Shown one piece after another: positions 5,601-32,000 of a stretch of DNA of 64,000 nucleotides. Source of the stretch: Aptenodytes patagonicus (taxonomy: Eukaryota; Chordata; Aves; Sphenisciformes; Spheniscidae). Both the position numbers and the translations under genes were made by a program. Below the pieces are notes generated by a model that was not told where the DNA came from, did no database searches, and was given only the letters and a program-made list of their open reading frames with translations. The stretch covers positions 1,309,501 to 1,373,500 of the forward strand of contig NC_134962.1 in NCBI RefSeq assembly GCF_965638725.1. Direction: 5' to 3'. Numbering within the stretch: the stretch's first letter is position 1; each line of letters begins with the position of its first letter.

Positions 5601-7029
5601 CAGTCCCACCTGCCCCAAGTTTTCTCAGCATCGTCTGCTGTCCCCGGGACATTCCTGTCCCGTGGTGACAGCGGCCTCACTGCTGAGGCACTCTGACTTC
5701 CCCCATAGAGCACACCTCTGCTCCCACCTTCCTTACTGCCAACTGCAGGATCACCCTCTCTTTTATAACCATCTTTCACCTACTAAAAAGCTGTGGTCAT
5801 GTCCTCCACCTCAACCTTCTCTTTGCTAGGCTGAGAAAATCTGATACCAACAGCCTTTTCTAACAGGTCACATTTCCTAAATCTCATCCCTCCTACTGCT
5901 ACAGCCTGGACTCTCTCCCGGTTTCTCTTAATTTTTCTTGATAGACAGTATCAAGGTTAGATTTCACCAGCATTAAGCAGAGCAGCATAATTACCTCCAG
6001 CATATTAATAAATAAACACGTGCCATTTTGCAAGAGTGAGTCAGGCTGCTAGAATTTCCTCCATAAAGGCAGCTGGGGTAACCGTATGGATTTGCTGCCT
6101 ACATCCCAGCACTGGATATTTGTGGCACGTACCGTGGTAATTTTGATCTCTTCCAAGGTTTTAGCTAATTCAGCCTTCCTGAGTGCTAATTTCCTCTGAG
6201 TAAAACTTCTGTATTTCTCTTGGGATGGTGACGTCTCTGAAGGCAAGGGTGGTTTTTTACTCAGCATAAATGCAACTGGTGAAACAAAAAAGAGGCCTGT
6301 GCTTATTTCACAGCCCAGTTTCAACGCCTTACATCTACTCTTCTCCTGTCATACGTGGCCGAGGGGAATATAAAGAACTGAGAGACTGCATTCAAACCTT
6401 CTGCAGCCCCAGCAAAAGCCACTCGCAGTTACAGCCCAGGAGCTGAGCCTACAAAGCGCTCCCTGGTCTTTTCTAGTTCTCCCCCTTTATTCTCAGCATT
6501 TCCCCTTGGGTAATTTTCTTTTTGTGGCTTTTGCTGAACGTCTCCCAGCAGAAAGCACTGGGTTGATGCGAAAGCGGCACCAGCGGGCAGGGACAGCAGG
6601 GCGATGTATAAGGGAATCTCTCCCAACCTGGCTTGTCCTTCTCTCCTTTCTTCTTCTTGTCCTCATTGGTGAGCGGTGGCAAAGTCAACCTGCGGGCTGG
6701 AGATTTCCTCTCCTCTGCTTCTGTCTTCTGCCATTTGCTGTAATCCTAAACTCAGCACGACAGCAGCACAGCAAAGATGGGGAGTCAAACGAGGTTTGTG
6801 AGCAGAGACCTCTCTGACTTGACCCACAGTTCTGACTCCCCTCCGCAACTCCCCCGGGGCTTCCAGGTGTCCCTTCGAGCCCTTTACCAGCAGCAAATCT
6901 CAGGTCTGTTTGAGAGACGCTGCGCTTATAACCACAGTGTTTTAAGCGCCATAAACCCCACGGGAACAAGAGACTTACTATTCTCTTGAACTCCTCCGTG
7001 ATACTCGGAACCGGGCCCTGTGCATCCAT
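2619..7029 (-). CDS. C20orf96: C20orf96 ortholog, coiled-coil protein (9 coding exons)
   Basis: Coding exons, read on the minus strand: 6979-7029, 6628-6727, 6133-6275, 5404-5562, 4840-4939, 4248-4405, 4019-4120, 3037-3120, 2619-2741. All have GT/AG borders and phases close to 1020 nt (339 aa; the human protein is about 363 aa by memory). The protein is Lys/Glu/Gln-rich. Long coiled coils run from exon 4 (IEELKQRSARLAETN) through exon 6 (LQQQLDEVTSKVQVLQDEL) to exon 9. The end, DPRELIFADVLLRRPK, matches the human C20orf96 tail block and is followed at once by a stop, so the last roughly 18 human residues are missing. Its place beside SOX12 fits 20p13 synteny. Start: ATG 7029 has a strong context (G at -3 and +4). 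An alternative uses ATG 7025 with the acceptor before 6737 (341 aa). An upstream exon cannot be excluded, because a good acceptor lies just before 7042. Function is unknown; a scaffold or ciliary role is only inference. Confidence 0.87.
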
Positions 7030-9192: not shown

Positions 9193-9323
9193 ATTGGCGG
9201 AGCCGGATATTTCCCCCCCCCCCGCGGCCAATGGGCCGGGGGAGGCGGCGCCTCCCATTGACAGAACCGGCGCGGCGGTGTTTACCGGGGGCGGCGCGGG
9301 GGCGGGGCGGCGGCGGCTATAAG
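9193..9323 (+). promoter_or_regulatory. SOX12: SOX12 core promoter (CCAAT boxes and TATA-like box)
   Basis: An inverted CCAAT (ATTGG) is at 9193-9197 and a direct CCAAT at 9228-9232. A TATA-like CTATAAGAG with TATAAG at 9318-9323 follows. The spacing predicts transcription starting near 9345-9355, about 650 bp before the SOX12 start codon. Placement is inferred from motifs only. Confidence 0.6.
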
Positions 9324-9419
9324 AGCGGCACCGGGGGGCGTGCGGCTCCCGGGCTGCCCGCACCGCCCCCGCGCACCCCCCGACTCGGACCCGCCACAGC
9401 CTCCCCGCACTGCACCCGA

Positions 9420-9710
9420 CCGGAGCATCCGCCGACTCAACCGGGGAAGCATCCCCGGGGCGGTGCGGAGCGTCCCCGGGCCGGTACAGAGCATCCTCGG
9501 ACCGGCGCGGAGCGTCTCCGGGACGGTGCAGATCATCCCCGAGCATCCCCGGGACGGTGCAGAGCATCCTCGGACCGGCGCGGAGCGTCTCCGGGACGGT
9601 GCAGATCATCCCCGAGCATCCCCGGGACGGTGCAGAGCATCCCCGGACCGGTGCGGAGCATCCCGGAGCATCTCCCGACCGGACCGCTGCGGAACATCCC
9701 CGAACCGGAG
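9420..9710 (+). repeat. GC-rich tandem array in SOX12 5' leader (73-bp higher-order period)
   Basis: A basic unit of about 20-25 bp related to GAGCATCCCCGGGACGGTGC recurs across the stretch. Groups of units are duplicated with a 73-bp period: the same block starts at 9489, 9562 and, more diverged, at 9635. The period is not a multiple of three. The array lies between the predicted transcription start and the SOX12 ATG. Confidence 0.8.
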
Positions 9711-9885
9711 ACCGCCGGGCCGGCCCGGGGTCCCCTCCGGAGCATCGCAGAGGCCGCCGCCCCGGCGGAGCCGCCCCCGCCGTGCGCCCCCGGGCCCCGG
9801 CGCGGCCCCCTGCGCCCCGCCCCGCCGCCGCCGCCCGCTCCGCACAATGGGGGCGGCGCGGCGCGGCGCGTAGCGGCGGGCGGGG

Positions 9886-9953
9886 AGGCGGCGGCGGCGG
9901 CGGCGGCGGGCGGGGAGGAGGAGGAGGAAGAGGAGGAGGAGGAGGAAGAGGCG

Positions 9954-9984
<31 letters not shown>

Positions 9985-9990
9985 GGGGGG
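9886..9990 (+). repeat. CGG/GGA trinucleotide tract in SOX12 5' leader
   Basis: Two runs of CGG repeats (about 9888-9909 and 9955-9983) flank a purine-only GAG/GGA stretch (about 9914-9951) and end in a G run only 17 bp before the SOX12 start codon. Such a leader would form G-rich secondary structure in the mRNA. Confidence 0.85.
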
Positions 9991-10006
9991 GGTTCCCGGC
10001 CCCGGC

Positions 10007-10906
10007 ATGGTGCAGCGCGGCATGCGGGGCCGGGGCGCGGAGGCTCGGCGGGAGCCCTGCGCCCCGCTGCCCGCCCGCGACGCCGAACCCGCCTGGTGCA
10101 AGACGCCGAGCGGGCACATCAAGCGGCCGATGAACGCCTTCATGGTGTGGTCGCAGCACGAGCGCCGCAAGATCATGGACCAGTGGCCCGACATGCACAA
10201 CGCCGAGATCTCCAAGCGCCTGGGCCGGCGCTGGCAGCTCCTCCACGACTCCGAGAAGATCCCCTTTGTCAAGGAGGCCGAGCGCCTGCGCCTCAAGCAC
10301 ATGGCCGACTACCCCGACTACAAGTACCGGCCTCGGAAAAAGGGCAAGGTGGGCGCCGGCACGTCCCGCCCGCGGCTCCCGGTGAAGATTAAACCCTCTG
10401 TCCTAGGCCGCGTCTCCGCCAGCCGCAGGCAGCCCGCCAAGCCGCCCGCTGGCCCCGATGCCTCGCAGGAGCCCGCGCCGGAGGTGTCGGCTGAGGACTG
10501 CCCCGTGGCGCCCAGCACGGCCGCCTGGCACGCGGCACCCGCTGGGGAGCGTGACCCCCAGGAGCCCCCCGCGCCCCCGAGCCCCGCCGCCGCCTGCCCC
10601 GAGCCGGGGAGGTCCCCGGAGAGCGGGTCCCCTTCTCCCATGTCAGCCGGGTCCCCTCCCTCCTCCTTCAGCTCCTCCGACGAGGAGCTGGAGGAAGAGC
10701 TGCTGGGGGTCCTGCCCGGGCGGGCCCCCGCCGGTGCCGCCTGCGGTGCCCTGGACTGGTCCGTCTTCGACAAGGACCACGACCTCTTCCCGCGGGGCGG
10801 CTCCTCGCACTTCGAGTTCCCGGACTATTGCACGCCCGAGGTGACGGAGATGATAGCGGGGGACTGGCTCATGTCCAGCATCTCGGACTTGGTCTTTACC
10901 TACTGA
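10007..10906 (+). CDS. SOX12: SOX12, SoxC-group HMG-box transcription factor
   Basis: Single-exon gene of 299 aa. The HMG box lies at about residues 39-107 ([18 protein letters not shown] through [12 protein letters not shown]), the minor-groove-binding and DNA-bending domain typical of SOX proteins. A Pro/Ala/Ser-rich linker follows, then a Ser/Glu patch ([13 protein letters not shown]). The C-terminal transactivation segment contains [16 protein letters not shown] and ends in SDLVFTY, the signature of SOX4/SOX11/SOX12. The N-terminus (MVQRG) and the [18 protein letters not shown] run resemble SOX12 rather than SOX4 or SOX11, and the NRSN2/C20orf96 neighbours agree. The start is the first ATG that gives the family N-terminus; the same frame stays open 150 codons upstream without another ATG. 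Human SOX12 is 315 aa by memory. It acts in the nucleus in neural and mesenchymal progenitors. Confidence 0.96.
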
Positions 10907-16997: not shown

Positions 16998-17670
16998 ATG
17001 CCCGCCCGTGAGCCGGATTGCAGCTGTGGCCGCGGGCCCAGCGTGGCGCAGGGGAAGTGGTACGGGGTCCGCTCCTACCTCCACCTCTTCTATGAGGATT
17101 GCACCGGGGCCAGCCCCGACTGGGACGGGGACGGGTCCTCACCCCACGGAGCCTGGGCCCCCCTCATCTGGAAGGTAAGAGACCCTGAAAACCCTTCCTC
17201 CCTCTTCCCCCTGGAGATGCACCCCCCCTGCCCGCATCCTGCGTGGGGTGCATCCCACCACGGCATTTGGGTGGCCCTGTCCCCAGGTGAGCCTCTCCAC
17301 GGGGACCCTGTTTCTGCTCATGGGGGCCACTGCACTGGCTGCCGGCTCCCTGGTGCCCCCGAAGCTGGAAGGGATCGGGGAGGAGGAGTTCATGGTGCTG
17401 GACGTGCAGGCAGTGCGGTACAACCACGTGCTGGGGACGTGCCGGCTGGTGGGCATGGCGCTGTGCGCGGCGGCCAGGATGCTGGGTGCCGTCGGGCTCC
17501 TCTCCTCTGCACTGGCCTTGCGCCGCCCCCAGGAAGAGGAGCAGCAGCTCTCGCCCATCCTGTGTGGCAGCCCCCCGCCGCGGCCCCCCGCCACCTTCGC
17601 CCCGGTGGGAACGGCGATGCCCTTCAGCATCTCCCGCGTTCACGGCGTCCAGCCCCAGCGGGACACCTGA
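16998..17670 (+). CDS. NRSN2: Neurensin-2 (NRSN2), two coding exons
   Basis: Exons 16998-17174 (59 codons; acceptor CCCCCAG before 16993, donor AAG|GTAAGA) and 17287-17670 (127 codons plus TGA) join in phase 0 to give 186 aa; human NRSN2 is 204 aa by memory. The N-terminal Cys-rich start (CSCGRGPSV) and [17 protein letters not shown] are the neurensin signature. Two hydrophobic segments at about residues 62-82 and 112-136 are membrane spans; between them is the conserved [12 protein letters not shown] run. The tail keeps EEEQQLSPI and ends VQPQRDT, close to the human ending. Neurensins are small vesicle membrane proteins of neurons. The loop in exon 1 after the EDC motif and the tail differ most from mammals. 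The gene follows SOX12 in the same direction, as in human. Confidence 0.94.
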
Positions 17671-17899: not shown

Positions 17900-19100
17900 T
17901 GGCGGCTCGGTGGCCGTTGCTGTGTCTGTGTCAGAAATGCCGCGAGCGCCGGGTTTCGTGTGGCGGCCACCACCTGCCCCCACCGCCAGCGGCACCTCAT
18001 TCAGTTCGGCGCGGAACTGGATCAGAACGCGGGAGCGAAAGGATTTGGCCCAGTTTCCCCGTCGGAGGCTGCTGAGGCTGTTGCTGGCGGCTGAGCACAG
18101 GGTATGGGGCTGGAGCAGGGGGCACAGCGTGTGGGGGCACACGCAGGCCACGTGGCTCCATGTGCCCTCTCCTGCCAGCCCAGCACAGCCCCGTGCATCA
18201 CCTGCCTTGGCCACCAACATCTCAGCTCCCCTGGGATGCCCCTGCACCCCGGGGTGCTGCTGCGTCTCGGTGGGACGGTCCTCGCTGCACCACCGGGCCA
18301 TGCTCGGGGGCCAGCATCACTCTGGGAGCAGAGACCACCTGGAGCCCCCGGAGGCATCGCTGCCGCTCACCTGGGGGCTGCCTGCGCTCCCTGGTGCCGT
18401 GAGGCTCCTGTCCCATGTCTCTCCAAGGCTGGGACCCGCCAGGGCCTTGCGTCACCCCACAGCAACCCGTGTGTTGCAATACACAGGTGTTGTGCAGCGC
18501 ACCTGGCATCCCCGGCCCACGCGGCCCTGAGGGCACCCACCCACTGCCGGCACGGGCTGGCTGCAGCAGGCACCATGGGGGTGCCAGGGCCCCAAACTCT
18601 GCCTCCCATTCCCCCCGGCTTGGCCCTGTGTCCTTGAGAAAGCTGAGCTGCTCCTGTGGCCTGGCACGTCCCCTCGCTGCCCCCCCCCCCTGCAGCATCA
18701 GGGCAAGACCATGACCACGTCGCGGCAGAGCCAGGGTGGAGGGATCTGGCCAGCGGCACCCGGCAGCCCCTCCAGTAACCCTGGGCCAGACCCGGTCACA
18801 CTGGCCGGGCTCGGGCGCAGCGGGGCTGGGGCAGCTGTCCCCTCAGCCGGGGACCAGAGCGGGAGGGCGAGGGGGGGACGAGGAGTGGGAGAAGGGCCCG
18901 TCTCCGTGCCCTTGCGGGGTGCCGATACTGGTCGTGCTGATACAGGGAGGCAGGCAGGGCAGGTGGGAAGGGAGGCAGGGCAGGCAGGGCAGGCCGGGCA
19001 GGCAGGGGAGGGAGGGGAGCCGGACCAGGCTGGCATGTTGCAATTGGGCTCGCAGCGGCATCAGCCGCAGCAGGGACGGACAGGACGGGATGGGAGCGGG
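17900..19100. other. Intergenic, no gene seen
   Basis: GC-rich sequence with no recognisable exon. A short hairpin (CAGTTC/GAACTG) is at about 18003-18020, and a GGCAGG-type simple repeat is at 18948-19015. Any promoter or 5' exon of the TRIB3 remnant should lie here, but none was identified. Confidence 0.5.
18948..19015 (+). repeat. GGCAGG-type simple repeat
   Basis: Tandem GGCA/GGGA-like tetra- to hexanucleotides just upstream of the TRIB3-like exon. Confidence 0.75.
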
Positions 19101-19126
19101 CGGCCACCAAGCCCAGCCCGGATCCA

Positions 19127-19339
19127 GCCCGGAGGAAACGGCTGGAGGAGCCCCAGGACAGCCCTGAGCTGGCGAGGCCAAAGCCCCCGCGCCCCCAGCC
19201 CCGTGTGCCGTCCCTGTGCGCGGTGCCCCTGACTGCCGGCCCCGGGGGGATCGGGCCGTACGTCCTGCTGGAGCCGCGGGACGGGGGCCGCTCCTGCTGC
19301 GCCGTGCACGGCTCCACCGAGGCCGAGTGCAGCTGCCAG
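19127..19339 (+). pseudogene. TRIB3: TRIB3 first coding exon, orphaned (kinase exons absent)
   Basis: In one frame this exon reads ARRKRLEEP, a Pro-rich stretch with PQPRVPSLCAVPL, then IGPYVLLEPRDGG and the TEAECSCQ end. This follows the order of the human TRIB3 N-terminus (KKRLEL, PQPRLPPCLLPL, LGPYVLLEPEEGG, TEYTCK) as I remember it. The exon ends in CAG|GTACTG at 19339, the place where Tribbles genes have an intron. No in-frame ATG was found immediately before it; the nearest ATG (19035) is in another frame. None of the later Tribbles blocks (GDMHS, the LRDLKL loop, the CPAYV segment) appears on either strand up to TBC1D20. The position between NRSN2 and TBC1D20 is where TRIB3 lies in human. 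It is a decayed or partly deleted gene unless the assembly has dropped sequence. Confidence 0.7.
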
Positions 19340-19815
19340 GTACTGGCACCCCGCACTCTCCGGTGTGGGCAACTGCTCTTTGAGGAGGATGGGGAGGAAG
19401 AGCTGCACAGTTAAGTGCCCAGAGGTGCAAGGCGAGCAGGAGAGGAAGAGGAGGGCTCCAGGGCCCGAGAGCGGAGGTGCCCAGGAGTGCAGCTGGTGGC
19501 TGTGGCAAGATGCAGCCACCTGGACCGGGATGCCGCTGGGACGCCTCTGTGTGCGCCGTCAGCTCCCGGTGCCCAACCCCGTGCCTTTGGGGAACTGGGG
19601 GACCGTGCCACCGGCAAAGCTGCCATGGCCGGGAGCAGGTACGGGGGGGTCAAACGCAGCCGTGGCCCCCACCCTCAGCACGGTGCTGAGCCGTGTCAAG
19701 CTGTGCCCAGCCTGCACGTGCACAGCGTGCCAGGCTGCACCCACACAACAGCACCTGGGAGGGACCCGGCTATCTGCACAGACCACCGCTTCCCTGATTG
19801 TGCTCTTTTTGGGTA

Positions 19816-19821
19816 AATAAA
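19816..19821 (+). terminator. Plus-strand AATAAA after the TRIB3-like exon
   Basis: AATAAA followed by a T/G-containing stretch (GGGCTGTTCTC about 30 nt on). It lies only 477 bp after the donor of the TRIB3-like exon and may be the preserved 3' end of that former transcription unit. Confidence 0.4.
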
Positions 19822-19859
19822 AGACGTTTTGACATTTCCCTGCGGGCTGTTCTCTCCGC

Positions 19860-20830
19860 TGAGTCCCAAACAGGCCGCAGCTGCCTGGGGCGAGGCCCGG
19901 CTGTGCCTGGGAAGAGCACACGGCAGCTCTGTGCCAGCAGGCGAGGGACCCCGCTGGGCAGCTTAACCCCTCGGCTGGTGCTGGGCTCGCTGTCCGGGCT
20001 CCCGGCAGGGCACCCACCCCGGCAGCGTGCCAGAGCTGGGCATGACATTAATGCAGTAACAGAGGCACGTGGTGCAAGGAACGGTGCTTGGCTGGCTCTC
20101 CAGGCTTCCCTCTGCCGCAAAACCGCAGCCCTGCCTGCCCTCCAACCCCCAAAACCCCACCGAGCCCCCCAGCAGCCCTCCACACCCTGCGGGCCTCCGC
20201 CTGCGTCTCCCTCCCAAAAGGCTTTGAACGCTATTGAGAAGATCGCTCCCGGAGAGGAAGCCACAGGGAACCAAAAATAGCCCCGGCCCGATCCGTTAAA
20301 CACGGCCGCCAGCCTCGTGCCGCCCAGCAAAGCCCGTTCCCAGCCCGGGGAAGGCGGCTGCGTCATCCCGGCTCAGCGGAGCATGCCCGGCCGCTGGAGG
20401 CTGCACGGGGGAAGCGGTGAGGGCCGGGCCTCTGCCAATGGGCACCATGCCCAGGATCTCCTCCCGCAGCCGGGCGCCCGGCCTGGGGTGCAAAAGGGGC
20501 CAGGAGGTCAGGCCATTCACAGCCCCGCTCTGCCCGCCGTGCTGCTGATGGAGGAGGGGGACACACACACAGACGCCCTGGAGTGCCGGCGGCACGTGCA
20601 AGTCCTGGCGTTTAACCAAAGGTAGGCAGACGGAAGGAGAACAGCAGCCGGGGCACGCAAGCGCCGTTTGGCTCTGCTCCTGCTTCTCTTCCCACGGGGC
20701 TGCCGGGTGTGAGGCCACACGGGTCGGTGACCGCAGAGCTGGCCTGGTTGCCGCGGGGATGTGCCAGCTCTGGGCCACGGGGTGCCACGAGAGCAGATCC
20801 GGCAGCCCCGGCCCCTGCCAGCACAGGGGG
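19860..20830. other. Intergenic between convergent units, no gene seen
   Basis: About 1 kb between the plus-strand AATAAA at 19816 and the end of the TBC1D20 transcript. RBCK1, which lies here in human, has no recognisable ubiquitin-like, zinc-finger or RING exon in this stretch. Confidence 0.55.
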
Positions 20831-20856
20831 AGGGAAGGAAGTGTGTTTAGTAACTG

Positions 20857-20862
20857 TTTATT
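20857..20862 (-). terminator. TBC1D20: Polyadenylation signal of TBC1D20
   Basis: AATAAA on the minus strand (TTTATT on plus), about 2.17 kb beyond the TBC1D20 stop. The 20863-23028 interval has no coding exon and reads as its 3' UTR. Confidence 0.65.
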
Positions 20863-23028
20863 TTACAGTTATAGGGTTTGTACAAATCTGCATTTACACG
20901 GGTAGGTATAAGTCTTTGTACAGAGTAACCGAAGCACCCGAAGCGACCGTCTCCTCCCAGGCCCTTCCTCCCCTGGGGACAACGCAGAACTAAAGTGCTT
21001 CATGGCTAGGGAGTGGGGGGGCTGCAGGGGCTTCCCCCCACGGGGGCTCCAGCCATCCCCTCCTTCGGGGCAGCGGGGGGAGTGTACAGAGGGGTCCTGG
21101 GACCGCCGGCAGCACCCCCAGGTCACCACAGACTCTCCTGCACCGCGAGTTTCTAAAGTGCTGAATCGCCCAGCCCTTCGCCCCGCGCCGCTGCTGCCCT
21201 GGGGAGGTGCTGAGGGCCAGAAACAGGCTCCACCGCCTTCAACCACGGTGGGAGAGAAGACCCGTGAGCAGCCGCCGGCTCGCAGCAGGGGTGCGGACAG
21301 CCCTGGCACAAGCGAGCAGCAGAGGGAACAGGTCTCACCGCCCTGCCTGCGCGAGAGCAGATTCACACACTCCGGCTTTCAGCCCGCAGAGGCAAAGGAA
21401 ACCCCTCTGCTCAGAGTTTTACGGAAACACAGGTCAGGCCTGACGACTGCCTGCACGCCCTCCGGCCAGCCCGACGGTCAGAAAGGCACGGCCCCTCCGA
21501 GAGCGAGGGCCCACAGGGCAACCCAGGACTTACCCAGAGGCGGTTACGAACCGACAGGCAGGGGGTTGGGACAGGAGGGTGCTGAGTCTTGCAGGGCACA
21601 AGTTTTGTTCTCTATCCTGAAATCCCTAACTCTTCAACCAACACCTAATTTTCAGGTGTGCAGCCCCTGGGCACGGCACAGAAGGCTTTGGGCACAACAC
21701 AGCAACGGCGGGGGAGCTGGGTGGGAGCCGTAAGGGACGGGTAAGGGCACTTGCGGGAGGTTTAGCAGCTCAGGGGAGAGGTAGAGGCATATAGTATCTA
21801 TTGGCTTTGTCTCACTGGGACACGGAGTTGTCAGAAGGATTTGCTGCTTAGCTTGGAGGGCAGGGAGCGCTAGGACTGTTAACGGGACTGGGTGGGGAGA
21901 CCAGAGCTATGCAGGGATCAGGGGTGGCCTTTCTGGGAAACTCCCTCACTTGCGTTATTCCGAGGGGCAACGCTGAAGTCTGATCAGCTCGTGGGGGAGA
22001 TTTGTGACAGATTTCCTACCACAATGACTTCTGTCCCATGCAAAGTGTTTCACAAGGTGGAAAAAGCCTTTCTCCACATTAGAGCCTGCTTCCAGAGCTG
22101 TAAAAACGTCTGCAACGGGTGTTTATGGTGCCGCTAAGACTTGTGGTGATGCGATCTGGCACATGACAGCAAAAACCTCAGGCAGGGCGAGCAACACTCG
22201 TCTCTCACCTTGCTGACCCAAGATATGACCGTGCTACTGCCAGAGAAGGAGCCCCCACAACCGAGAGCTAAGCTCCCTCTGGCAGTCTTGTGGATCTGCT
22301 CCTGTTCCCTGCCCTTCTCTCCTGTAAACACATCAGGCTGCAAAGATGAGGAAGCAAAAAGAGCCAGGGAGTGTTACAGACCAGAGAGAACCTCGTGGCA
22401 GGGCGCTGACAGGGGTTCGTGAAAGGTTTGGCTCTACTCAGAGGTTGCCTATAGGAAAGGGAAGGGTCGGACCACCAGCAAGGCTGAACGCAGGCGCAGG
22501 GGCATGCTGGCAGCCTGCAGACAGGAGCAATGCAGAGCCAGAGAGCTGCCCTGTTCCTCAGGAGTGTAACAGCCCCTCGCCCCCACACACGCACGCACCC
22601 AGGCCAAACCCTGCCATGACACTCTCCTCCAGGTGAGGATCCACCCTCACTCCCACTAATTATCTCCAACAGAGAACGTGGGATCGTTTCGGCACAGCCC
22701 ACGCACGGCTCTCCACTCGTACAGTCACCTGTGCGCAGCCTGAAGAGCCTGACTCGTCCATACCTCCGGTTCCTCATGAGACGGCGGTAGCGCCCATCTG
22801 CTCACCCCTGCACGGGGAGGAGAGAACAAGGTGAGCGTCGGTGTGGGGAACAATCCTGCTGGGCTGGTTCCCATCAGTCTCTGTCGCAAAGGCCAAAAGC
22901 GTCACTGGACGCAGCAAGAATAAAAAATAATCTTCAGACAGGTCGTTTCCGGACACGTCGTTTCATCAAAACATCACCCTTTCCCGCCAGGGAAGGACGT
23001 GGTGACAGGGAAGGCCCTTCCTCTGGCT

Positions 23029-26000
23029 TTAGGGGAAAATCTGCAGTTCAAACTTGGGTGCCCACTCCAGCGCACTCTTCACCACAGCCAGGGCAGCTGC
23101 TCCCAGCGCGACCGTCAGCCCCATCACCGCCAGCTTGACAAAGCGGTTGGTCCTTGGCTTTGTCAAGATGGATTTTGTCCGCTCCTCCCCTCGGAGCCGC
23201 TCCCTGAAGCGCTGCCTCAACACAGTGTCTGGTCTCTGCTGCACTGACGCCAACTCAAAGTCCTTAAAAGTAGAAGCCGCAGTTCTGCAAGAGAAGAAAC
23301 AGGTAGAGGAGCGTCCCCAGCTCGCCTTTGGGACCAGCCTCCTGCCAGGGAGGAAGATCTTCGTGAGGAAGCAAGACCTGGCAAGGGGATGTACAGAACA
23401 CACGGGCACACGGGCTGCCCTGCACTCACCGTTCAGCCTGCTGCTGAGCTGCCTCCCTGGCAAGTTCGGATGGTGGGAACTGGACAAAAAGGTCCCCAGC
23501 TCTGCTGATCAGAGTCTCATAAGGAAGGTCCTGTGGAATCTGGGACAGGAGGTGGTGGACAGAGGCCATGTCGCACTCGCAGTCCAGAACTTCCTGCTCC
23601 CGGTACAGCACGATCTGCAGAGAGGAGCGAGAGAGCACTGAGGACAGCTGGGGAAGTGGGGATGACTTCTTGTCACTCGCTGGCACTCCCTTCAGAGCCG
23701 GAAGAGAAAAACATTTCGCTTCCAGCTGAAAGACCTGCCCTTCCTCAAGGGGACACACTGCAGTGAAACATTCCCTGCCTGGGAAGAGAAATGCCAAACC
23801 CTTCCCGAGACTCTGAGGCCATGGAAAGCCCCTTTCTGGGTAGTTACACCTGTCTTCTGAGCAGAGCCTGTTACTGGCAGGTCAGAGATGTGGGTAGAAC
23901 CTCAGCAGGGCTTGACTCCACGACTTGCCCTCAAACAGAGATTTGTTTGGATCTCCCACAGGAGAAAGGGCAGATGGACGCACAGTGCAGGGCTGCCCCC
24001 AGCCAGCCGGGCTGCCCCCAGCCAGCCAGGCTCCCCAGCACTCGAGCAAGTGCCCAGCAGCAGGGCCAGCACATGAAAGCAAAGCAAAACACCAGGTCAT
24101 GCTGCCTCCACGGCACTGAACTGGAACAGCCTGCACATCTGGACACCCCCAGGCTGCCCCGAGCTCCCCTGGATCCCACCTGCCCTCCACCACCACCAAG
24201 GACATCGCCGGCCTTGGGGGGCCCCTGCAGAGCGGGGTGCAGCCAGGGACAGCAGCAGCACTGGCTTTGCCAGCCCCCCTCTGCAGCCCCAAGCTATCAG
24301 CACTTCGCAATGGTTCAGTTAATCCCCCTACCATTCCAGCCAGTACCTACCACAGCAGCAAAATAAATGGGCATCAGCGGATGGCAAGCCAGGAAGAAGT
24401 CGTATAATCGCACAACGTGCCTGAAGTCGGACAAAACGTGCCCGAACCAGGTGATCAGCCAGCTGAGAGCAAAGATGGTTCCCACCTCCGCACTGCACAG
24501 AGACAAAGTGCTGTTAGGGCAGCTGCTGCCAGCAGCTTGGAAACAGCGCCAAAATGCTCTTGGGCGATCCCTGCGCCGCACCTCCATGTCTGGGAGGGGA
24601 GACAGACCTGGCTATCAGCAGAGCATTCAGCGCTCAGCACAGATCCATGAACTGCACCTCTGATACAACCCCAAGGCAAAGTACTGCCACTACTCGTCTC
24701 GCACCCAGCGGGGTCCACAGTAGAGGTCCAAATGCTCTGCTTTCAGGAGAACCTGAACGTGTGACGTACCACGTCACTGTCTGGCACACTGACCTGAGGA
24801 CACCTGAAGTCCTGCAGCACAGTCAACTTTCTACATTCCTTTCCACCCTAAAGGCTTACTAACTTCTGGGAGTTTCTAATCAAGCTTGGTACCCAAAGAC
24901 GTCCTGGCCGTGAAATGTAACAGAGACACTTGCCCAGAAAAGGACTCCGGACTGAACCTTCCCACCTACCTTCCTGCTTCTGCTTTATTCTGTCCGGACT
25001 ACACTTGCATGTCCCTATTGCACAACCTGGGAATTATCCCCAGAACTAGCAACAAACTACAGCAAGGTGACACCGACCACAAAACTGGGCGTGTGAAGCG
25101 GTCGTGGCAGCTTTGTATGACACCGTTTGCAACCCTGCAGCCTTTCCAATATGGACTGCAGACCACTGGGATGAAGATGGCACCGTGTAAAACCCCTCCA
25201 AACAGGCAGCATAGGTTTGGGTCTGCTCGGAAGCAGAGTGCCACATGGCTTTGGACTGTCACCGTTAGCTGTGGGTCAGCTGTTGACTCACTCTGAGGAA
25301 GCCACTGTGGTGCCGGGGACATGCTGGTGCAAACGGCCCCATGAACAGTAACGCGAGACTGGCAGGACAGAGCTAGGAGGCTCCGAGGGAACGTCTGCGT
25401 ACCTCTGCATGAAGTCATGCACCTCAGGGTTCACCTGGTCTATGATGGGCATCAGGTAATTTAAAATGTGCTTGGTATTGTCCATCGTTGGGTCCATAAA
25501 ATCCCTGAGGAAAGATTTAAAAGAAGGTCCGTCAAACAACTACATCAGCGAGCTCTCCTCCAGGGAGGCAGCCAGAAGGTAAATAGATGTACTTGCAATA
25601 AACAGCTTTGCTGGCAGGGTGGCCCCCAGCCCCAAGGAATTCTGTCTATTTGGGACAGCCTCCTTCCTGCTTTTCTGGGACACACAGGGCTGATCTGCAC
25701 AGAAAACCCGGACCCAAACAATCACGCCGGTGTCAGCTGACACTTCTTATTCTGCTGAAGTGCACATGTGAACTGTAAAGCCTTTCCAGCACCCAAAACC
25801 TAACTCCCTGTCTGGGAGAGGAGGGAGAATCCCTCCAAATCACTCCTCAGCTGAAGGCTTGTTCTCATTTCAGTGCACAAACAGGAGAGTCATTTGACTT
25901 GGGGCTCAGGACACTGGCGGTACAGACCACGCTGGCCAGGGCTGTACGAGGCTAAGTGGGAGGCACTGTGCTGAGCCAGCCCCCAGGAGCTGGAGAGGCC

Positions 26001-29000
26001 CTGACAGCGGAGATGGCCAGAGAACTATGAATAATGCATGCGCGTTGGCTTTTTCAACTTCAAGAGATGTTACAAATTAATCTGACAGCCTTCAATTATC
26101 CCCTCCCCAGAGCACAACTCCCTGCAAAGCCACGTGTGGTCACGCTGCTCTCTCAAAGCACCCCTCTGGGTATGGACATGACAGGCAGCCGGCCTTAACC
26201 CAAGGCTCTGCCTTCCAGGCTCCCCTGCTCCGGGACAGGCCAACCCATCGGCACAGGCTTCCCCGCAGGCACAGGCGACCCCACAGCTTGAGGACACGCA
26301 GGCGGCTCCTCTTCCCCAGCTGAGCCTGGTGAGTACCTGAGATGATGCGTCGAGAGCTTTTCCACCAGAGCCGTGGCCAGTCTGTCCCCCACCACCAGGA
26401 GGAAGGTGACCACGATGTCATGGTAGCCCTGGTAGTAGTGCAGCTGGGGGTTGCGCTTGAGGACGTGGAGGATAATATCGATGAGCTCCTCCTGCAACCC
26501 TTCCCTCTGGTCATCTGGCATCCCTGTGGGGACAACACCAGGCGGCGGTGGGACAGGCTGTGTCACCTATCGGCGCCTGCCGTGGGAGTGAGCGCGGCTG
26601 CGGTATGCAAGGAGAGGACCCATGCATTTACCAACCTGCCTGATCCCAAGGGATGCGGTGCAAAGGGGAAGGGGGGGGGGTAAAACTAGCAGAAAAAAAT
26701 ATCCCGAGTCCTAATCCTGCCCCCCCAAACCCTGACGGCCCAGGGAAGCCGGCCAGTTGTTAGGTTGTTTAACCTTTGGAGCTGCAGTGCCCCTGCCTGT
26801 GAGGAAGTCACCGTGGAGGATGGGGAGCGGGGTTTACTGATGTTTGTACAGTGCTGCCAAGAGCGAATCATGCTGCACATCCAGCACCGCTAAGGACATT
26901 TTAATCATTTTTAATTTCCCAGGGGTTCTAGAAAAAAATTAAAACAGGACCCATTTTCGCAGCAACTGCGCCAACTGCATCAGATTGCAAGGCCTCCATC
27001 GCCCACAACTTTCTGTCAGTCCCCTGCTAACAACGTGTTTAGGGACAGGATGTCACAGGAAAAACATTGTTCCTGCCATGCACAGCTGCAGCCAGTTTCT
27101 GGCAGCCCTTGTCAACAGATAAAACGCCCAAAGGCCAAGCAGAAAGTCCCAGCGGAGATCCTGCAATGACAAAGTTCTCCTTTTCCCCTGCTTCATTAGT
27201 GCATCTAAAAATAGGCAGGAGGCTGCCATTCAAGGGCAAAAAAATCCGTACTAGCAGACCCTTCAGGAATCAGGCTTGCACACAGTATCTGCACTCGAAA
27301 GAGAACCAGAGTGAATCAACTGTTTACGCAAAATAAAAGCAGCAGAAGGGGGAAGCAGATTCTGGCCAGAGTCAGACAGCTGCTGGATTAAATGTTTTAT
27401 AAATAGCACAAGTAGGCACCAGCCACCCATCAGAACTAAACAACTGCAAAAAGATTTTGCTTCTAAAGGCTCAGAGTTCTCTTAAATTTGGTGCATGAAC
27501 CCGATTTTTGAGACCATTTTACACCAGAATTTGTTCTAACCACTGACAAACCTGCCTGCCACGCCCCTGAGCTAGACCACGGTCTAAAATAAACTGAAGC
27601 AAACGGTACATTTCTCAAGCACTCCATCTATCCTAATCTCACCCTGGTGACAACAGGTGAGGGGCACGCAGGATCTGGGCAGATCCTCTGCGCTGCAACT
27701 GCTCGACGGCACCAGCCTGCTGGCAGAGGGGCTCAGCGGGGCAGGGGGAAGCGTAACATTGGAAGAGCCACATCAAAAACCAGCTGTAGCACAGCCAGCT
27801 GAAGGAAACCGATAGCCACAGAATAGCTCCACTGCATGAAGAAGCTGCTGTAAGCTCACAAGGAAAAGGCTCTCTAGAAGTCGGAGCAACGGAGCATCAC
27901 CTACTGCAACCCCCCGAGCAAGGTCTGAGCCAGGAGGAGCCCCACGGCACAGACCTTCCCCCTGCAGAGCGGGAAGAGGAGAATCCCCTCTCACCTGGTG
28001 GGAAACGGCGCAGGGATCGCCGCACGTCCAGTAGCACTTGCTGGTAATCTTTATTGTCCTCTCGTAGCTCCTTTCCTGCTGAGAAAAAGACGACTGTGAT
28101 TAACACTGAGTAGTGCAAAGGTACCGGGAAGAGAGCTGGGCGAGGGAGCCGGGAGAAACCCTGCTGAGGGCAGGAGGATGAGGCTGCACACACAGACACA
28201 TCACCCCATCGTACGTCCCCTTTTTCGTACCTCACACACCAGCCCTGTCCCCTCACTTGCACTGCCACGCGTTCCGACACTAACGGCACTTCAGTGCGAG
28301 CAAACGAGACTATTATTTCTTTAAACAACATACGTTAAAATGGTTAAACTGACACCACTCCCAGCATTCATGGAAACATCTTTGCTCCACAGTTTTGTTG
28401 TGCAATTCAAAGCATACTCAGCAGCAGCAAGGCATGATACGCTGTGGAGACGACAAAGAATAGTTTATTAAATAGAAATAATTCAGAAGCAAACCCCACC
28501 CATGGGTAGCTAAGATAGTTAAGACAGAAGAGAAAAGAATTTGCTGGCACACTGGACGATCTATGCGATCACGTGAAATTAAATGTTGTCTTCCAGCAGC
28601 TCCGATCACCTAACATAATCCATCTCTTGACTGACGCGGGGGGATGCACAATTCTGAATGGCCACAGATCCAGGAACAACAGCAAAAATCTGTCCTGGGG
28701 ACAGTGACTGTAAAAGCTACAGGACGTGGAGCTTCTGCACTGGTAAGATTTAAAAACCACGCAGGTACCTCATCAGGAAGGTCATTTTCCCTGCTCCTGC
28801 TCTGACCAAACACCACACGTGCTTCACGCAACAAACTGCTTCGTCTATGCCTGGAAGAGACACCTCCGAAGTATTTCGGCCAAGCCAGGGCTCAGCACAG
28901 CCACCTCTCCATGGGAGCAACAAAAATTAAAGTTTGATACTTTCTGCTGCAGATGAACTTACAGATGCCGGCTAACTGCTCAGGGCCACACCAACCTCAG

Positions 29001-32000
29001 TGTGAAATTATTTTTCAACCAAAGTGAACTAATTTCAACCACTTTCAACCAAAGTGAACTAATTTCCATCACTGCCACTAGAGATAACACCACCCTCACA
29101 GCACAACGGAAATGTTGTTTTTCGGAAGTCGCGTATTTCCAAATCTGCCATTTACATACAACACAGCGCGCGAAGCTACGGCGGGCATGCTGCAGCGCGA
29201 GCCCCCTTTGCGCACGAGCTTGGTGGGAAACACACCAGCGTACACAGGGAAAAGGCAGGTCAGAAAGCACGTGCTTCAACCTCTGCCATCCTTCCTCTAG
29301 CGTGCACAGAGATCACCGAGCCGTTCTGCCAAAAGCTCCCGAGTCCAGGCTGTTCCGTACCTGGAAGAGGGGGCAGGTCGTCTGTGTTAACACTTAGCAG
29401 CTTCGGCCACACTTTGCAACGAATCTCATCCGTCAAGAGCCCCCCCTCGCTGATCGCCATCCGCCTGAGCGTGGCCACGTCGATAGGGTCGCTGTTCAGA
29501 GCCTGATAAATTTCCGCCACTTTCCTTTTCTTCTTAGAATCAAAGTCTGTAAGAAGACCACAAAGAGGCAAGCTGATAGGCAACGCCAACACACGGGGGG
29601 CAGCAACTCAGATCAGGGGGGCAAAATCCACTCACAGCGATGTCACACACACATCAAGGGAGATGACACAGGACAGTCGGCACACGCCCTGCCAGGACAG
29701 GCTCGGGACGACCCCGGCGGGTGACCCACCAGCTGACCGTCCCCATGTCCACAGGCTCAGCACCGGGGGCACCTCACGGCTCGCAGGGCACCCCCACCAC
29801 TTCCCTATCAACCCCGCTGGTCTCACCCTGGGAGGCAACCGCTGCTCCTCCCGACACGGGAGCCGCCACCGCTGCCCGAGCGGATCCCTCGGCTCCCGTA
29901 CACCCCAACAGATCACGGCTCCATTCAGGACCGCGACAGCCATGCAAAGTCACCCTGCGACCGTTCGCTCTCTGACGCAGCTGCCAGCTCAGGTGTCAAG
30001 TGTTTCCTAAGACCAGGACTTCGTCTTCCTACCGACTCCCAGCTAGACAGCGGCTCCTGGATGCAGCCGTCCTAGGGAGAAGCCTGAGCATTTCCACTGA
30101 CAGCAACAGTCACAAGAAAGGACTTAATTTTACCAGAGTTAACGAGTCACAAGCATATTGACTTCTCTCCCAACAAACACAAACTGGCCGGCTGTTAGTA
30201 CACGCGCAGGTTAGCCAGTATTAAACAAATACCACTGTTCTGTGGAGCACATGAACTCGGGGGCAGGTAGGGAAGGGAATAACGCACAAAGCACATGGTG
30301 CTCTGGTTTCAGATGGGTTAAACGCACTTACAGGACAGGAGAGCGCTTCCCGGGGAGCTGAGAAGGGACACTATTTCACACTGCATCGTGGTATTTGTCA
30401 CTGCTGCCTCACGCGAGGAAGGAGAGAGGCGGCCGAGGGCCACCCGATATCCCACACCGGAGCAGTTTCCACTAAGGAGGCTTTGCTGAGCAGCCGTGGG
30501 GCTGGAGCGCAGGATGAGGCCGCAAATGCTGCCTTTACTTAAAGGCTTTTTCCGACAGATCCAACTAACACTGCTCTTGGGATCCAAACGGGATTCGTTC
30601 GATAAGCGACGTGTCCGAATAGGATTTGGGGCGGGAGGAATTAAAAGGATCCCGATGGGAGAAACAGCTGTTTCTCAACGCCCCACCCTCCCGGCAGCGA
30701 CTCGGGGAGCACGCTCCTCTGCCCACGTGGCACCTCCGGCATCTCGGCGCTGCCCCGGCCCTCTCCCCGCTCCCGGGGAGCTGCGTGCGAGCGCCTGGCC
30801 AGAAGCACCGCTTTCTGCAGCGTCTGAACGGGAGACGGCGGGACGGCAGGCTGCTCAGACACACGGACGCTAAGTAGGTCAAGTGGTGGATGCTGTCCGT
30901 TCTCCAAGTACCCTTTTTAAACACTTTTTGGATGAAAACAAGCTGTAACGGCCTACGACAGATCTCCAGCTCCCCTCTAAACACCAAGTTCCTGGTAATG
31001 TTAAAGCTTCTAGCGCTCACCCAGTGACCGCGACTTCCTTTTATTTCCTTTCCCGCCCCTTGTGCGAGCAAAGTTATTTGCACACAAACCAGCTCCGCTG
31101 GCTGGCCGTTCCCTATCCCCCGCGGCACGCACATACTGGGCTGTCACATACCGAAGCCTCGGGAAGGAGGAGACAAAGCCTGTGGAAGAAACCCCTGTTC
31201 ACACACAAAGAACTTCAGGAGCAGCACGAAGGAAGGAGCACATATTGCAGGCTCCTCTTCTGAGATTTACTGGCAAATGCCCCAATATTTACACTGTTCA
31301 AACGTGCAGCGGACAACAGCTGCAAGTATTTTAAAAAAAGAAAAATAAAATTGTATTTCAAAACCTTTTTTGTGCACCCACAAAACCTTAACTGGCAGCG
31401 CCAGTTACACTTTGAAGGCGAGACGGAAACACAAGCTCAGAGCGCGGGGGCTTATCGCGCCGTAACTCAAACCGTACCGTCACGAAGGGTCCACCTGACC
31501 GGCCGCGGGTGGATTTTTATTTACTTCCCGCGGCTAAAAACAGCGCCTGGAACAGTTCTCGCTGACGAGCACCCGAGCGCAGCACCCGCCTGCGTGCGGA
31601 GAACGCAGACGATCCCCGCAGGCCGAAGAGGGACGCCCGCCCGCACCGGAGCGCGGTTCCGGAGAGGGAAGCAGCCCTGCGCTCCCAAGGGCTGAAACGA
31701 CGCGCAGGCACCGGGCACCGGCACTTACACAACGCTTCGCAAGGCCGGGCCAGCCCCGGCGCTGCTGCAGAGCCCCCCCCGCCCCCCGGTTACTGCCGTG
31801 ATGGGCGGCCTGGAAAAGCGAGGCCCGGAGAGCTGAGGGGGCCCGGCCTCGAGTCAGGCAGCGGCCAAACCGGCTGCGCCGCGCCTGCCCGAGCCCGCGG
31901 CCTGGCGAGGGAGCCCGCTCCCGCGACGGGGGACGGTTCCGCAGCCGCGGGGGGGGGGGCGGGCCCGAGCGGGGGGTTCGGGCCCCCGGGATCCCCCGGG

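Follow-up and report, generated by a model that had tools for sequence, protein, structure and literature searches.

A decaying first coding exon as the probable relic of a lost TRIB3 gene in Aptenodytes patagonicus

The 64,000-nucleotide stretch of Aptenodytes patagonicus DNA studied here (the window, at C14:1309501-1373500 in an assembly of 618 contigs totalling 1.352 Gb; all coordinates are window positions unless a contig is named) carries, between NRSN2 and TBC1D20, a single exon related to the Tribbles pseudokinase gene TRIB3. Very probably this is a unitary pseudogene: the deletion of exons 2-3, which encode the pseudokinase, would have left TRIB3 with a decaying first coding exon at the ancestral locus. 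What was observed in the assembly is the homology of the exon, a splice donor shared with the Tribbles family, a start codon out of phase, no kinase exon, no third Tribbles kinase and no recognised RBCK1, a gene that accompanies TRIB3 in other vertebrates. We infer that the DNA itself, rather than the assembly, lacks the kinase exons and RBCK1.

The sequence-only reading of this DNA had placed a TRIB3 first coding exon at this point, and both its frame and its coordinates are right, with GTACTG following the last codon (Table 1). The translation reads ARRKRLEE...PQPRVP...IGPYVLLEPRDGG...ECSCQ (complete reading, ARRKRLEEPQDSPELARPKPPRPQPRVPSLCAVPLTAGPGGIGPYVLLEPRDGGRSCCAVHGSTEAECSCQ). The TRIB3 N-terminal signature claimed for it proved to be homology above chance in local tblastn, since human TRIB3 matched 19112-19342 with an E value of 4.5e-10 without composition adjustment, and 19250-19342 with an E value of 1.35e-5 when the adjustment was applied. 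The human query, whose sequence did not come from a database record, gave 299-bit matches to Tribbles 1 and 2 when run against solved structures. The residues of TRIB2 taken from the solved-structure match also align at the place of the exon (E 0.004, local tblastn), and TRIB1 gave no match at the exon in the composition-adjusted local tblastn list. Considering the last 30 residues before the splice site, the identities were 16/30 with human TRIB3, 13/30 with the TRIB2 and 8/30 with the TRIB1 of the same genome. By homology the N-terminal exon goes with TRIB3 and not with its two paralogues, and these alignments strongly indicate that it is a relic of TRIB3.

The end of the exon was compared with the Tribbles genes of the same genome. 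The TRIB search of the assembly located TRIB1 on C2 as two exons at 11.857-11.860 Mb, its exon 1 being located by motif, and TRIB2 on C3 as three exons at 16.304-16.322 Mb. The two genes share their exon borders: exon 1 closes with C-K directly before gt in phase 0, exon 2 starts with GTG after ag, and exon 2 ends with EER before gt. The window exon ends TGC CAG before GTACTG, at a position and phase equal to those of TRIB1 and TRIB2 exon 1, which strongly supports a first exon of the Tribbles family that has kept its ancestral donor. The splice donor expected by the sequence-only reading is therefore borne out, at the same codon boundary. The lysine that ends this exon in human TRIB3 and in the TRIB1 and TRIB2 of the penguin genome, which we take to be the beta-3 lysine, is not kept (Table 1).

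Concerning the start of translation, the stretch from the in-frame stop at 18938 up to the donor has no ATG in the frame of the conserved peptide, so that the in-frame translation start of a functional Tribbles gene is missing. The nearest upstream ATG, at 19090, is 40 nt ahead of the RRKRLEE block and, as 40 is not a multiple of three, it does not share the phase of that peptide; two further ATGs, at 18711 and 19035, are likewise in other frames. In human TRIB3 the start is presumably 14 codons ahead of the equivalent RKRLE block. Judged in this way, ATG 19090 is at the expected distance from the block and in the wrong phase. Third-position GC amounts to 93% in the exon and 62.5% in 19340-19411, so the exon still has a coding signature past which the signal falls; there is good reason to regard the exon as non-coding now. 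So, the orphan first coding exon of the sequence-only reading stands in that this relic alone remains, but not as an intact exon, its start being out of phase.

Downstream of the donor, composition-adjusted tblastn revealed no pseudokinase exon in 19340-23000, where the best TRIB match had an E value of 6.5, and the earlier claim that none exists before TBC1D20 is upheld. The space had also been judged too short for the missing coding sequence. It is smaller than had been noted: the TBC1D20 coding end is near 23032 and a minus-strand AATAAA stands at 20862 which, with the donor at 19339/19340, leaves some 1.5 kb between the donor and the TBC1D20 3′ end. The AATAAA reported 477 bp past the exon is where it was said to be. 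The window is N-free, and the DNA of 19090-20850 occurs in one copy in the assembly, as found in a search skipping very common words. A deletion mediated by transposable elements was considered and is without support, no further copy of this DNA having turned up in that search.

The assembly was searched for TRIB in six frames, with 92 candidates scored, and 48 matches were obtained at E values up to 0.1. Five of them were TRIB1/TRIB2 exons (E 3e-46 to 2e-4) and one was the window exon, which leaves 42 others. Fifteen of these 42 were inspected, seven of which had no gene assignment; the remaining 27 had E values of 5e-4 or worse and were mostly short. The Tribbles S/N-LED motif was present in none of the 15 kinase matches inspected, and the DFG motif in seven. 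A match on C21 with two stops and the highest identity among the 15 (45%) was rejected as a TRIB3 remnant, its open part being STK40 (E 9.5e-30, versus 1.4e-12 to Tribbles 1), and the top-scoring non-TRIB match of the same 15 was nearest to TSSK6. As judged from these matches, no Tribbles kinase other than TRIB1 and TRIB2 was recognised in the 1.35 Gb assembly. The pseudokinase exons of a functional Tribbles gene are thus absent from the window, and no third copy was recognised in the assembly. The sequence-only reading had named an intact TRIB3 elsewhere as the observation that would overturn the loss, and it has come through this search. At the level of the assembly, there is a disabled copy at the ancestral locus and no functional copy elsewhere, as corresponds to a unitary pseudogene.

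The gene order in the window is HMG box, NRSN2, TRIB3 exon and TBC1D20, so the exon has the NRSN2/TBC1D20 position of TRIB3. From its position, the open frame with the HMG box is probably SOX12, and fragments at 37-40 kb are taken to be CSNK2A1. Published orders are SOX12, NRSN2, TRIB3, RBCK1, TBC1D20, CSNK2A1 in human 20p13 (PMC6625104) and CSNK2A1, TBC1D20, RBCK1, TRIB3, NRSN2 in sheep (PMC6853132); Trib3 and Tbc1d20 are given as the neighbours of mouse Rbck1 (PMC4298697), and tbc1d20, trib3 and rbck1 are listed inside one 540 kb region of coho salmon (PMC8102513). These four gene lists indicate that RBCK1 was probably here or nearby in the ancestor.

Table 1. Positions of the TRIB3 relic, of the elements around it and of the neighbouring genes in the window.
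Feature	Position	Strand	Remarks
TRIB3 first-coding-exon relic	19127..19339	+	KRL block, PQPRVP, IGPYVLLEP core at 19250-19276; open in frame
Final exon codon CAG (Gln)	19337..19339	+	Lys in human TRIB3 and in this genome's TRIB1 and TRIB2
Splice donor GTACTG	19340..19345	+	Intron position and phase 0 common to TRIB1/TRIB2 of this genome
Nearest upstream ATG and its 25-codon frame	19090..19167	+	TGA 19165; out of phase
In-frame run-on ending GQLLFEEDGEEELHS, TAA 19412	19340..19414	+	Candidate, unproven TRIB3 C-tail remnant
AATAAA	19816..19821	+	One of two on the + strand in 17-23.5 kb; the other at 22919
Residual interval, donor to TBC1D20 3′ end	19340..20850	.	Without TRIB kinase or RBCK1 matches beyond chance; N-free; single copy
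NRSN2 exon, upstream neighbour	17179..17670	+	Pfam Neurensin, E 1.6e-23
TBC1D20 exons, downstream neighbour	23032..29550	-	Seven exon matches, E 6e-10 or better (tblastn, human TBC1D20)
Open frame with HMG box	9323..10903	+	Pfam HMG_box, E 1.7e-25

RBCK1 itself gave no convincing match when the window alone was searched (best E 0.046, at 6288-6404). A search of the assembly with a human query gave no match at E 0.001; at E values up to 10, with 19 candidates scored, there were 12 matches of 36-81 residues, the best of them (E 0.015) over the RING stretch 276-314. This RBCK1 (HOIL-1) query matched its own solved chains with 658 bits over 279 residues. As controls, TBC1D20 gave nine assembly matches, seven of them on C14, and parkin, an RBR protein encoded in small exons, gave 20, of which 11 were in order on C3. 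According to these searches, RBCK1 appears to be missing from the TRIB3-TBC1D20 interval and has no orthologous match in the assembly, an observation that is new here. The loss of TRIB3 proposed by the sequence-only reading is thus supported, but its extent is wider than had been thought, RBCK1 being gone from the interval too.

With respect to how the locus came to this state, one or more deletions in the TRIB3-RBCK1 interval would have removed TRIB3 exons 2-3 and RBCK1, and the frame shift at the start would have occurred together with the loss or after it. A single deletion may have been common to the TRIB3 exons and RBCK1, or they may have been lost separately. A transcript from the old promoter would yield no conserved peptide from an ATG, as the nearest ATG would lead to 25 residues. 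The stress-induced restraint of AKT by TRIB3 would be either absent or taken over by TRIB1/TRIB2.

Some features of the flanking sequence were also recorded. A short, CAGG-rich tandem array lies just upstream of the exon (18943-19016), and it is the only one found in 17-23.5 kb; among the short repeats around the exon there was nothing suggestive. The TGATGNAA stress element was found on neither strand in 17.6-19.4 kb. Upstream of the exon, TGTTGCAAT occurs twice, at 18472 and 19036, and these sites presumably resemble C/EBP-ATF sites. In another part of the assembly, a second, divergent TBC1D20-like gene occupies C331:1-3000, on a 43.7 kb contig with about 70% GC over its first 3 kb; it could be either a GC-rich, dot-chromosome-like paralogue or a contaminant.

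A more specific account of the loss, possible but rather doubtful, is that an internal deletion kept both ends of TRIB3, with the kinase part that lay between intron 1 and the COP1-binding tail removed. Taken as a whole, and held with the same reserve, this account would make GQLLFEEDGEEELHS the original tail end, the AATAAA at 19816 the original signal, and the disappearance of RBCK1 a second loss. It is compatible with the deletion of exons 2-3 proposed above. The stops in 7-23 kb of both strands, leaving out those preceded by fewer than 12 residues, were ranked by comparison with the C-tails of TRIB1 and TRIB2 of the same genome and of human TRIB3. The stop at 19412, which sits where a tail relic should, ranked 1/329 by summed score (23 versus 13 for the next) and 2/329 by best single score. 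On the other hand, the acidic character of the tail had been noticed before the ranking was run, and third-position GC drops at the donor, as indicated above. Moreover, the Tribbles C-tail motif DQXVP[D/E], as published (PMC5382568), is not present, and its core has not been kept; there is only a doubtful GQLLFE ahead of the stop.

Several observations weigh against the interpretation of the exon as a unitary pseudogene. An exon dead for long would be unlikely to keep both a frame open over 71 codons and an intact 9-residue core, as this one does. In a decay simulation, the core and the open frame were both kept in about 5% of cases at 0.2 neutral substitutions per site and in 0.4% at 0.3. It must be taken into account that this simulation is biased, the core having been picked as the best-conserved stretch, so it is only a hint at a fairly shallow loss or at constraint that acted on the exon for a while. 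The open frame by itself is weak evidence, because random DNA of the same composition is stop-free over 71 codons 23% of the time. Besides, the window exon reached just E 0.023 in the whole-genome six-frame search, and Pfam and solved-structure searches with the exon and its run-on yielded nothing of note, perhaps because the exon is short and mostly ahead of the structured domain. Finally, a dropped or collapsed GC-rich stretch would look identical in the assembly.

This last point corresponds to the explanation that TRIB3 exons 2-3, and RBCK1, are real and that a GC-rich stretch was lost by the assembly between 19340 and about 20850, with the phase of the start being an indel error of the consensus. 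The GC content of the exon (77%) would agree with it, as would the phase fault of one base, which is typical of consensus errors. Nevertheless, we consider it unlikely, as three defects (kinase exons, start phase and RBCK1) would all need to be errors. The N-free window argues in the same direction, and DNA equally rich in GC was assembled, namely the HMG-box frame (75%) and TRIB1 exon 1 (76% over 420 nt), while the residual interval has just 67% GC and the sole tandem array found lies on the other side of the exon.

It is less probable still that the exon remains in use under selection, as the first exon, regulatory or non-coding, of a transcript that starts at the TRIB3 promoter and is short or chimeric. 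The conserved donor, the open frame and the high third-position GC are what one would expect of such an exon, but it has no in-frame ATG, and the TGATGNAA element is lacking in the region upstream, where there are just the two TGTTGCAAT look-alikes. That the similarity arose by chance in GC-rich DNA, or that the exon belongs to another gene, would suit the many long open frames of this GC-rich region, the genome-wide E value and the lack of Pfam and structure matches of note, but it is hardly credible in the face of local E values of about 4e-10 to 1e-5, the right intron position and phase, and the syntenic place.

The pseudogene interpretation may have a wider context in the fate of the linear ubiquitin chain assembly complex (LUBAC), of which RBCK1 is a subunit, with human mutations causing amylopectin-like deposits and immune disease (PMC4298697). 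A query with the RBR-LDD of HOIP (RNF31) gave a single match in the assembly (E 0.055, 32% identity) and thus no exon recognised as orthologous; this query matched solved RNF31 with 907 bits over all its 376 residues. The LUBAC-tethering Pfam model had no match in the assembly, in a search run without positive control. Speaking mildly against the absence of HOIP, Pfam PF18091 gave one assembly match just over the cut-off (E 0.088); its frames, judged by eye, were not HOIP-like. An interferon-response study starred RBCK1 and RNF31 as common to its mammals only (PMC5747502), a marking that fits the absence of both genes and does not show it. If the HOIP partner was already gone, RBCK1 could have been lost together with the TRIB3 exons. 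We propose, tentatively, that the relic borders on one side a TRIB3-RBCK1 segment lost in a bird lineage from which HOIP has disappeared as well, so that LUBAC would be missing. Alternatively, RBCK1 and RNF31 could both be on unassembled dot chromosomes.

As a kind of finding, a gene loss with a relic is ordinary. No report of an avian TRIB3 loss was found among the matches listed in a search of titles and abstract starts of the openly licensed PMC literature, and neither TRIB3 nor RBCK1 is named in the main text of Lovell 2014 or Hron 2026. Eyers et al. 2017 report the full set of three Tribbles from reptiles, alligator among them, and one of their legends gives chicken TRIB1 and TRIB2 and alligator TRIB3, with no chicken TRIB3 (PMC5382568). 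With such a relic located, the position of the loss on the bird tree could be traced, and the relic helps to tell a real loss from an assembly failure in the long-running dispute on avian missing genes. Mammalian TRIB3 binds and modulates AKT (PMC5382568); if the loss is real, the part of Tribbles in the stress and insulin signalling of this lineage would rest on TRIB1/TRIB2 alone. A consequence for metabolism was supposed by the sequence-only reading. The apparent absence of LUBAC subunits is the bolder lead.

Compared to the TRIB1 and TRIB2 of the same genome, the relic shares the codon boundary and the phase 0 at which exon 1 ends, but those genes keep all three coding exons, including the tails with DQIVPE and DQLVPD. 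It resembles the TRIB3 of mammals and reptiles in the N-terminal blocks of the first exon and in the chromosomal neighbours, and differs from it in that no pseudokinase exons, in-frame start, exon-end lysine or recognised COP1 tail were found with it. The case is also like the avian 'missing' genes (Lovell 2014; Hron 2026) in the absence of a conserved vertebrate gene from the assembly in a GC-rich region. However, while Hron et al. 2026 described extensive real losses in birds and met no pseudogenes after the genes lost from dot chromosomes (PMC12954441), the present gene has left a relic exon behind, and its scaffold measures 18.9 Mb.
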